A stretch of DNA of 64,000 bases, from assembly GCA_937928045.1 (NCBI GenBank), contig CALFWO010000027.1, positions 1 through 64,000 of the forward strand, read 5' to 3'. The stretch is from an uncultured Saprospiraceae bacterium (GTDB lineage Bacteria > Bacteroidota > Bacteroidia > Chitinophagales > Saprospiraceae). Below the pieces are notes generated by a model, which was given only the letters and a program-made list of their open reading frames with translations, had not been told where the DNA came from and ran no database searches. Position 1 is the stretch's first letter. Each line of letters starts with the position of its first letter. Positions 14,224 to 17,826 of the stretch are shown here, in pieces. The position numbers and the translations under genes were made by a program.

Positions 14224-14239
14224 GGTTCCACGTGAAACA
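14224..14239. other. parS-like chromosome partition site
   Basis: GGTTCCACGTGAAACA matches 15 of 16 positions of the ParB-binding consensus TGTTNCACGTGAAACA; only the first base differs. It is intergenic, just after thrC, and about 2.5 kb from the putative oriC. That is where parS sites usually lie. parA and parB are not in the window. Confidence 0.65.
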
Positions 14240-15375: not shown

Positions 15376-15592
15376 TATATTTCTAAGACTTAGCTTATTT
15401 AATGATATCAACAGAGTTATTAACATTTTTACTGAAATTCAATGTTATCCTACCAATTAAGCCTTCCTCGTTTTCCACATACTAACAATAAATGTTAATA
15501 AAATGGAATAATTATAGCATAAAAACAAAACAAGTAAATATATTTATCTGATAATCAATTATTTATATGATTAATTAGACTTACACAAATTG
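15376..15592. other. AT-rich gap between the hydrolase and heme A synthase genes
   Basis: A strongly AT-rich stretch with no ORF. One DnaA box-like TTTTCCACA (one mismatch) lies at 15471-15479, isolated from the dense cluster at 16.7-17.1 kb. TGTTAATA-type short repeats occur near 15490-15500. No terminator hairpin for ctaA is evident. Confidence 0.4.
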
Positions 15593-16675
15593 TTACTCAT
15601 TGGAAGAATTTGTTGATAACCTCGGTTTAAGGTGGTAAAGAACATACAGTAAAGCGGCGAAAAGTAACAAGGCAACACATTGATGTAGGGCCCCATACCC
15701 TATTGGAATGGATCCAATAGCATTTACAATTGTTAGTATCCCTAGTATAAATTGAGTTACCAACAGAGTTATTAACAGTGTTGATCCAGCTCTAACTTTC
15801 CTATTTGTTGAATTTTTTAAATTGAGTACAAACCAAATAATAACAGCTGTTAACAAATAAGCTGTTATTCTGTGTAAGACTTGTACAATGGCCTTTACAC
15901 GGACAGAAGCCTCATAATCAAGAATACTGTCCACATCAGTTGAAACTGCAAGGGAATTCAATAAGTTATTGCCATTTACAAAGAATGGCCAATGCGCGTG
16001 AATAAGACCAGCCCGCATTCCGGCCATCAGACCGCCAAAAAGAATTTGAACCATAAGCAATCCAGCAACACCCCATCCTATACTATACCAAAGCTTATTT
16101 CCCCCATCCAACGAAATTTGACTCGACTTGAGCCAAGTCCAAAAGAGATAACAAAATAATGCAGCTGCTAATCCTAAATGTGTAATTAACTTATAGGCAC
16201 TCACCCAAGTCCGTTTGTCTGAATTCAGTCCACTTTTTACCATTATCCAACCAAAAACTGCCACAGTTGCTGCGAGTAATATAACAATACCAAGACGCAT
16301 ATTCAACCATCGTGGCATCATACCCCTTATATTGAAAATTAGAAAAGGAATAATAAATACAAATCCCATAAGCCTCGCCCATAACCGGTGAAAGTACTCC
16401 CAGAAGAAAATAAACTTAAACTCGCTTAAAGTCATATCTCCATGCAAAGACTCGTATTGCTTTCTCGCATGAATTTTATACAAATCAAAAGCTTCTTCCC
16501 ATTCCATTGTATTCATTGGTGGCAAGGTTCCTTGTATAACCGACCATTCTGTTATGGATAACCCAGAATCGGTTAACCTGGTAACCCCTCCAATCACAAC
16601 TTGAAAGAAAATCATGACCAATCCAATCACTAGCCATACCTGAATAATTTTCGCAACACCTGTCTTCTCGTTCAT
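15593..16675 (-). CDS. ctaA: heme A synthase (COX15/CtaA)
   Basis: An inner-membrane enzyme oxidising the C8 methyl of heme O to the formyl group of heme A, needed for aa3-type cytochrome oxidase. The 360 residues contain about eight hydrophobic segments. The family hallmarks are visible: FFQVVIGGVTRLTDSGLSITEW near residues 20-41, an EYFHRLWARLMG segment with a heme-ligand His (about 92-103), HAHWPFFVN with another His, and LHRITAYL and ALHQCVALLLF in the second half. The Cox15 type (GGxTRLTxSGLS plus long loops) fits better than the short Gram-positive CtaA. It reads away from the putative oriC, which begins at its 5' side. Confidence 0.94.
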   Translation of the reverse strand: MNEKTGVAKIIQVWLVIGLVMIFFQVVIGGVTRLTDSGLSITEWSVIQGTLPPMNTMEWEEAFDLYKIHARKQYESLHGDMTLSEFKFIFFWEYFHRLWARLMGFVFIIPFLIFNIRGMMPRWLNMRLGIVILLAATVAVFGWIMVKSGLNSDKRTWVSAYKLITHLGLAAALFCYLFWTWLKSSQISLDGGNKLWYSIGWGVAGLLMVQILFGGLMAGMRAGLIHAHWPFFVNGNNLLNSLAVSTDVDSILDYEASVRVKAIVQVLHRITAYLLTAVIIWFVLNLKNSTNRKVRAGSTLLITLLVTQFILGILTIVNAIGSIPIGYGALHQCVALLLFAALLYVLYHLKPRLSTNSSNE

Positions 16676-17148
16676 TTGATATTTTTTGAGTTATCCACTC
16701 ACATTCTGATCCCTATTAATAATATTATAATTTTAAAAAAAATACCCTCATCATCATAGCTGTGGAAAAGGGGATAACTTTAATTTAATAAATTTGAATA
16801 TTGAGTTATTAAGGAATTCAATGCAATTATCCACACTTAGTTCACATAATAGTAGTTTGTAAATCAATATTTTAGTCATTTTTCCACAATACTTGTCAAG
16901 TTTATCCACACAACAACTAATTCATTAATAGAACTCAACACTAGCTTAATCAACTGTGGATAAACCTGAGGTTATACACCAAAAAAGCCACAAATAAACT
17001 AATTATTATATATTAATAAAATATATTCTTAGTAACTGTGGATAACTTTGAAGATACTGACGAGTAATCCACATTATAATCCACATCATGTGTATAACTA
17101 ATGCCTATAAAAATTAACTAACTTTAGGACTCACCAGAAATACATGCT
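16676..17148. other. putative chromosomal replication origin (oriC) with a DnaA box cluster
   Basis: The 473-base non-coding gap carries four exact DnaA boxes (TTATCCACA or its complement) at 16827-16835 (+), 16902-16910 (+), 16955-16963 (-) and 17037-17045 (-). Six more have one mismatch: 16691-16699, 16761-16769 (-), 16880-16888, 17065-17073, 17077-17085 and 17089-17097 (-). A two-mismatch copy is at 16972-16980. The last three boxes are spaced exactly 12 bases apart. An almost pure A/T block at about 16991-17030 lies between boxes and could be the unwinding element; another is at 16711-16740. No other place in the window has such a cluster. dnaA is not adjacent, which is common in Bacteroidota. 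Origin function is inferred from the motif cluster and the nearby parS-like sites. Confidence 0.85.
16991..17030. other. candidate DNA unwinding element of oriC
   Basis: A block of almost only A and T (core ATTATTATATATTAATAAAA) is bracketed by a DnaA box-like site at 16972-16980 and an exact box at 17037-17045. Low-stability AT blocks next to DnaA boxes are where bacterial origins open. The exact limits are a guess. Confidence 0.5.
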
Positions 17149-17826
17149 ATGTGTGGTAGATACTCTTTAGCAACCACGAAAGCTAAGATGGAAGAAGAAT
17201 TTGGAATCGACATTGGTAATGACCAATTGTCAATAAGTTTCAATATAGCTCCAACTCATAAAGCTTATGTAATAACTAATGAAGCTCAAGATAGATTATC
17301 GACTTTAAATTGGGGACTTATTCCAGCTTGGTCTAAAGATGATAAATTAACAGGCAAACTAATCAATGCCAGAGTTGAAGGTATATCAACAAAACCAAGC
17401 TTTCGAATGGCGATTAGAAAAAGAAGGTGTTTGGTAATAGCGGATAGTTTTTATGAATGGAGGAGAGAAGGCACAAAAAAAATACCTTATCGAATATTTC
17501 CGAAAGATGGAGAACTGATGGCTTTAGCCGGTATATGGGAAACTTGGGGATCCGATAACTCTCTAAAGACCTTCTCAATCTTAACTACAGAGGCTAATGA
17601 TGATTTGAAAGATTTACATAACAGGATGCCAGTGTTTTTCTCAAGACCAAGTCAGCAAAAAAAATGGCTCTCTGATCTAACATTAGATGAAACAATAGAG
17701 ATGTTACAACAGCCAGCTTCATCTTACTTAACCAAGTATAGAGTAACAGAGCAAATGAATTTACCAATAAACAACTTCAAGCAAATACACGAAGAAGTAC
17801 CAGAACCTCCAACTTTGTTCGGATAG
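17149..17826 (+). CDS. SOS response-associated peptidase (SRAP/HMCES/YedK family)
   Basis: SRAP proteins crosslink covalently to abasic sites in single-stranded DNA through Cys2 and shield them. The 225 residues begin MCGRYS, so that Met removal exposes the catalytic Cys2. The other family residues are visible: LINARVEGISTKPSFR (Asn and Arg for DNA binding, about 64-79), the FYEWR motif with the catalytic Glu (about 100-104) and HNRMPV with the active-site His (about 158-163). The start at 17149 is fixed by the need for Cys2; an out-of-frame ATG precedes it by five bases. It is the first gene of the operon that leaves the putative oriC, a suggestive place for a single-strand DNA protector. 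Confidence 0.94.
   Translation: MCGRYSLATTKAKMEEEFGIDIGNDQLSISFNIAPTHKAYVITNEAQDRLSTLNWGLIPAWSKDDKLTGKLINARVEGISTKPSFRMAIRKRRCLVIADSFYEWRREGTKKIPYRIFPKDGELMALAGIWETWGSDNSLKTFSILTTEANDDLKDLHNRMPVFFSRPSQQKKWLSDLTLDETIEMLQQPASSYLTKYRVTEQMNLPINNFKQIHEEVPEPPTLFG

Follow-up and report, generated by a model that had tools for sequence, protein, structure and literature searches.

Where does replication begin on a chromosome on which dnaA does not mark the origin? In Bacteroidetes, oriC commonly lies far from dnaA (Prevotella intermedia paper, PMC4755523), and in the uncultured Saprospiraceae bacterium considered here a gene-free gap had been predicted, from its DnaA boxes, to be such an origin. The gap lies in the window (the whole stretch of DNA that was analysed, 64,000 nucleotides), which is part of the 178-kb contig C27 of a draft genome of 5.18 Mb in 75 contigs. 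We are highly confident that this 473-bp gap is a DnaA-dependent chromosomal replication origin (oriC), and propose for it the mechanism outlined below; its elements, their conservation and their coincidence with the replication-strand switch are direct observations.

DnaA boxes and A/T tracts in the ctaA-SRAP gap

The predicted coordinates and flanks of the gap proved exact: ctaA, reading left, borders it at 16675, and the SRAP gene reads right from 17149. As had also been predicted, dnaA is not adjacent, being located on a separate contig (C74); parA-parB are likewise on a contig other than that of the gap. Rfam families searched across 14.0-18.5 kb gave no matches. The gap, its flanking genes and its main elements are:

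16676-17148, no strand: gap and proposed oriC core, divergent ctaA/SRAP intergenic region, 473 bp, 10 DnaA boxes with at most one mismatch
15593-16675, minus strand: ctaA (Pfam COX15-CtaA), constant neighbour of the proposed origin
17149-17826, plus strand: SRAP gene (YedK/HMCES-like), usual right neighbour
16691-16699, plus strand: one-mismatch DnaA box TTATCCACT
16714-16744, minus strand: proposed DNA unwinding element, pure A/T, 31 bp, longest such run in the window
16827-16835, plus strand: DnaA box, exact
16880-16888, plus strand: DnaA box TTTTCCACA, its flanks too being identical in both congeners
16902-16910, plus strand: DnaA box, exact
16955-16963, minus strand: DnaA box, exact
16992-17051, no strand: another candidate unwinding site, ranking second in the window for low stability over 60 bp
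17037-17045, minus strand: DnaA box, exact
17065-17097: three one-mismatch DnaA boxes (17065 plus, 17077 plus, 17089 minus)

The gap holds four exact TTATCCACA boxes (at 16827, 16902, 16955 and 17037) and six with one mismatch (at 16691, 16761, 16880, 17065, 17077 and 17089), in both orientations. These counts agree with the original prediction, which had listed a single two-mismatch box where we found two, at 16769 (TTATCCCCT) and 16972 (TTATACACC). When the gap was shuffled with its dinucleotides preserved, 0.27 boxes with at most one mismatch were expected against the 10 observed (maximum 4 in 3000 shuffles), and the mean number of exact boxes was 0.011 against four (maximum 1). The gap thus carries an intergenic DnaA-box cluster well above chance, a hallmark of oriC, and its density is unmatched in the window, as had been claimed: outside the cluster, the densest other 475-bp stretch holds only 2 boxes. 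The longest invariant string of the gap, TTTTAGTCATTTTTCCACA at 16870-16888, is the same in all three congeners.

A second hallmark, an A/T-rich and easily melted element, is present in the form of two pure A/T blocks, 16714-16744 (31 bp) and 17000-17027 (28 bp), which are the only A/T runs of at least 24 bp in the 64-kb window, and of the window's second least stable 60-mer. The boxes had been described as surrounding one A/T block; the A/T character stands, and the number of blocks is two. The window's 60-mer of lowest stability, 15519-15578, lies beyond ctaA.

Strand asymmetry at the gap and the position of dnaA

A likelihood scan over gene boundaries placed the best strand-asymmetry breakpoint of the 178-kb contig exactly at 16675|17148 (logLR 13.1; p = 2e-4 when genes were permuted); since only 16.7 kb lies left of the gap, this evidence is good and not final. 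At four-fold degenerate sites of the contig, the G-C skew goes from -0.074 on the left of the gap to +0.080 on its right, and the T-A skew from +0.093 to -0.035; the shift occurs separately in plus-strand and minus-strand genes with the same sign change. Plain cumulative GC skew inside the window is noisy and the switch is not visible in it, whereas the four-fold sites do show the signal. On this contig of a draft genome, the gap therefore coincides with a skew switch (p 2e-4), a third hallmark of oriC.

Dense DnaA-box clusters also occur elsewhere, and an exact-box scan of the whole draft revealed one that is comparable, with three exact boxes within 74 bp on contig C72, the other exact boxes being scattered. 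It lies upstream of nrdB, the ribonucleotide reductase small subunit gene, and we rejected it as an origin candidate for being the nrdB upstream region. At C72:16673-16746 (L034 8650-8760), one pair of its three exact boxes is palindromic, TTATCCACATTGTGGATAA. Across relatives, the nrdB upstream region holds 68 boxes against 5 expected, a sequence pattern which suggests that DnaA may control ribonucleotide reductase through this cluster. DnaA control of nrdAB is known in E. coli.

Eleven relatives assembled in few contigs, all of which carry dnaA and the SRAP gene (11/11), offered a view of the whole chromosome, with the skew of closed relatives computed from sampled stretches. In G198 (7.51 Mb, one contig), the skew origin falls at 2.32-2.40 Mb and the ctaA-SRAP gap at 2.3487-2.3494 Mb, with dnaA at 0.4 kb. 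The skew interval of G065, 0.32-0.44 Mb, includes the gap at 0.378 Mb (22 boxes), dnaA being 1.2 Mb off, and the total-skew interval of G282, 2.00-2.12 Mb, includes the gap at 2.052 Mb (18 boxes). These three relatives thus repeat the coincidence, their skew interval containing the orthologous gap with a sensible terminus, and their dnaA lies 1.2-2.35 Mb from the interval. A fourth, G100, is uninformative, because its skew is too weak and, with the gap inside the interval, implies a terminus that makes no sense; in G282 and G100, four-fold sites by themselves failed to place the origin. In closed records such as those of G198 and G100, numbering starts at dnaA, at least 2.3 Mb from the likely origin.

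These distances bear on the idea that the origin is at another box site, beside either dnaA (C74) or nrdB (C72), the ctaA-SRAP gap being merely near it. The contigs of the draft are unordered and C72 does have its three exact boxes within 74 bp; however, that site is the nrdB upstream region, the dnaA contig C74 has no exact box, and dnaA is 1.2-2.35 Mb away from the skew interval in the closed relatives. We give this explanation a negligible probability and keep to the gap as the origin.

A conserved putative unwinding module upstream of ctaA

To follow the gap across relatives, 80 loci were fetched via SRAP proteins of the family, the identifiable ones being Saprospiraceae and near kin. A divergent ctaA-SRAP gap is present in 52 of the 80, with 220 boxes against 11.9 expected. 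Over 56 gaps, TTATCCACA scores 277. Permutations of its nine letters have a mean of 12.9, and the highest-scoring of them (153) are shifted versions of TTATCCACA itself. The gap of the congener G001 measures 476 bp and has most boxes at matching offsets. Pooled over the relatives, the four-fold skew rises from -0.069 left of the gap to +0.023 on its right, the shift being in the predicted direction at 36 of 46 loci (p 1.6e-4).

From a 9-mer common to many gaps, a conserved module of about 60 bp was discovered, present in one copy and in a single orientation in 56/56 examined gaps. Scanned with a weight matrix from which close relatives were withheld when scoring each copy, the module is always on the ctaA strand and scores between 7 and 62 bits, while nothing else within about 5-6 kb on each side exceeds 0.8. 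Its order is tandem DnaA boxes, a GC spacer, three trinucleotides with a conserved middle T and an A/T tract; on the ctaA strand the consensus reads TTWTCCACA, an overlapping second box ending in ACA, GCCC, CTR-ATR-ATR, GG and the A/T tract. Among 55 aligned copies the middle T is kept in 100, 96 and 93% at the three trinucleotides, and three consecutive middle T are found in 91% (0% in other frames), the distance from the outer box to the first trinucleotide being 11 nt. In the window, the module runs on the minus strand from 16777 down to 16714:

16769-16777, minus strand: BUS box 1 TTATCCCCT, two mismatches, position conserved in 55 aligned copies
16761-16769, minus strand: BUS box 2 TTTTCCACA
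16749-16757, minus strand: DnaA-trio-like ATG-ATG-ATG, following the GCT spacer at 16758-16760
16725-16781, minus strand: hit of module model R1 (62 positions; E 1.6e-9), whose training set included the window copy

This arrangement resembles the basal unwinding system (BUS) of Bacillus subtilis and many other bacteria, in which DnaA boxes are followed, after a spacer that peaks at 10-13 nt and reaches 16 at most, by three or more trinucleotides whose middle adenine is conserved on the bound strand (PMC8287927): tandem boxes, an outer-box spacer of about 11 nt, a GC-rich link, at least three trinucleotides and an A/T tract are common to both. The general BUS pattern (PMC8287927), in which a pair of boxes is separated by 0-16 nt from three or more trinucleotides that keep their middle base, is found here, the window with its ATG-ATG-ATG included. 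The module differs from the published BUS (PMC8287927) in that its trinucleotides are CTR-ATR-ATR on the box strand (3'-TA[C/T]-5' opposite) where BUS has mainly 3'-GAT-5', and in that its boxes share one base (8-bp pitch). The trinucleotides depart from the strict trio consensus 3'-[G/A]A[T/A]-5', the first base being mostly T on the bound strand; consistently, a strict trio search (at least three YTW triplets) gave 11 against 6.5 expected, with no clear enrichment, whereas the relaxed middle-T pattern is enriched. The module suggests that a BUS-type opening mechanism, with a variant trinucleotide, operates in Bacteroidota.

A sequence model, R1, was built from 33 module copies. Searched against the whole genome at E<=0.1 it gave a single match, the gap; as the window copy was part of the training, the uniqueness of the match is the informative part. 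An R1 match lies just upstream of ctaA in 19/19 family genomes with both positions listed. These include seven (G005, G008, G011, G015, G017, G020 and G033) in which the SRAP gene is distant, on another contig or not found, and there too the match stays with ctaA. The statement that gene-order rules would miss the origin holds for the dnaA rule only; in this family, ctaA can be relied on as a neighbour. In two closed genomes of a different family of the same order, G056 and G406, module matches adjoin the quinolinate synthase gene nadA (named by sequence inspection). In G056 the skew changes sign from 1.29 to 1.37 Mb, all sampled stretches agreeing, and the module match is at 1.330 Mb; the match of G406, at 3.71 Mb, is outside the skew interval of 2.76-3.05 Mb, which, the skew being very weak, is either a miss or no information. 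The nadA neighbourhood is likely the origin address in the family of these two genomes. The module is there also near a peptidyl-prolyl isomerase-like gene (MSVIQKIR...; L273 in G056, L284 in G406).

Could the boxes instead form a DnaA-responsive promoter or a titration site (datA/DARS type) governing ctaA and the SRAP gene or the timing of initiation, with the origin elsewhere? Divergent promoters must sit in the gap, and box clusters do exist at non-origin promoters, as upstream of nrdB (68 boxes versus 5 expected). However, this contig and three closed relatives have their strand switch at the gap; the cluster upstream of nrdB, with its three exact boxes, gave no match to the R1 model; and a promoter or titration site would leave the oriented module of boxes, spacer, trinucleotides and A/T tract in every relative unexplained. 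We therefore regard this explanation as very improbable.

With the gap taken as oriC, a separate question is where the duplex opens. Opening might begin near the A/T block at 17000 or in a left sub-region beyond ctaA, and not at 16714-16757: no 60-bp stretches of the window are less stable than 15519-15578 and 16992-17051, and the minus-strand box at 17037 points into the latter. Only the 16714-16777 module, however, is conserved in sequence, spacing and orientation (56/56 gaps), so that opening at these other places appears unlikely and the primary melting site is probably 16714-16757, by ctaA, rather than the block near 17000.

A dnaA-distant origin is already known for the phylum, and the gap resembles the Bacteroidetes cases (DoriC; Prevotella intermedia OMA14, PMC4755523) in being an intergenic box cluster at a skew transition with no dnaA nearby. 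It differs from them (PMC4755523) in its ctaA/SRAP address, conserved across Saprospiraceae, and its family-wide unwinding module. A literature search for ctaA together with oriC and for Saprospiraceae origins found nothing relevant; the conserved address and the module were not found described in the literature searched, and this origin is unusually well anchored. Because both are common to the family, the origin can be located even in fragmented genomes: for draft Saprospiraceae genomes, in which the dnaA rule fails, oriC can be found from a checkable address, upstream of ctaA, and from a short sequence model.

The ctaA side of the gap and the proposed mechanism

Many relatives have a further crowd of boxes in the 3' part of ctaA and in the gap that follows it. 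Over the final 200 codons of the gene, boxes number 103, against 26 when synonymous codons were shuffled within each gene (maximum 44), shared ancestry inflating these counts, while the 5' part shows no excess (7 boxes versus 9.5 expected). Two features of the window lie on this side:

15471-15619: left sub-region beyond ctaA, boxes at 15471 (plus) and 15611 (minus) flanking the least stable stretch 15519-15578
14224-14239, plus strand: parS-like ParB site GGTTCCACGTGAAACA

In many relatives, the origin probably extends into and past ctaA. The window's own left cluster has two one-mismatch boxes only, the second cluster being clear in the pooled relatives, and judged by its sequence the left sub-region reads as a reduced counterpart of it. 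Bipartite origins such as those of Helicobacter pylori (oriC1/oriC2) and B. subtilis likewise have two DnaA-box clusters separated by a gene, as do many relatives here; the difference is that the separating gene is ctaA, that boxes reach its coding sequence and that the window's genus keeps a left remnant only. We tentatively propose, with somewhat more doubt than conviction, a Saprospiraceae extended origin comprising the module, with a lineage-specific 5'-ATR-3' trio variant, upstream of ctaA and a second box array in the ctaA 3' coding sequence and the gap beyond. If so, the body of a respiratory-enzyme gene would form part of the origin. Measured from the stop codon, the boxes inside ctaA have fixed offsets (about 146/158, 307/319 and 494) in about 50 relatives and in the window (15593-16200), with further boxes just past the stop codon (-25/-13); the ctaA boxes exceed what the protein requires.

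From the elements of the gap we infer DnaA binding, opening at the 16714-16744 tract, helicase loading and segregation. DnaA would bind the box array of the gap, and a DnaA filament would start at the tandem boxes 16761-16777 (minus strand), cross the short GC spacer onto the trinucleotides 16749-16757 and open the A/T tract 16714-16744. Helicase would load at the opened tract, and two forks would depart, one via ctaA and one via the SRAP gene, while the ParB site at 14224 would mark the origin region for segregation.

Parallel parS-like sites were found in 14 of 52 relatives (fetched stretches), all on the ctaA side and 2.5-9.1 kb from the SRAP gene. The conservation of boxes, BUS-like module and parS-like sites lends independent support to the prediction of an origin, alongside the strand-asymmetry breakpoint of the contig and the skew of G198, G065 and G282. 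In G282 (C1:2044953-2045370; L184 2953-3370), a second dense block combines 14 DnaA boxes with three interspersed parS-like sites; it lies on the ctaA side, at a distance of about 7 kb from the origin. Two more parS-like sites of the draft genome, at 38813 and 39574 on contig C26, may be origin-proximal.
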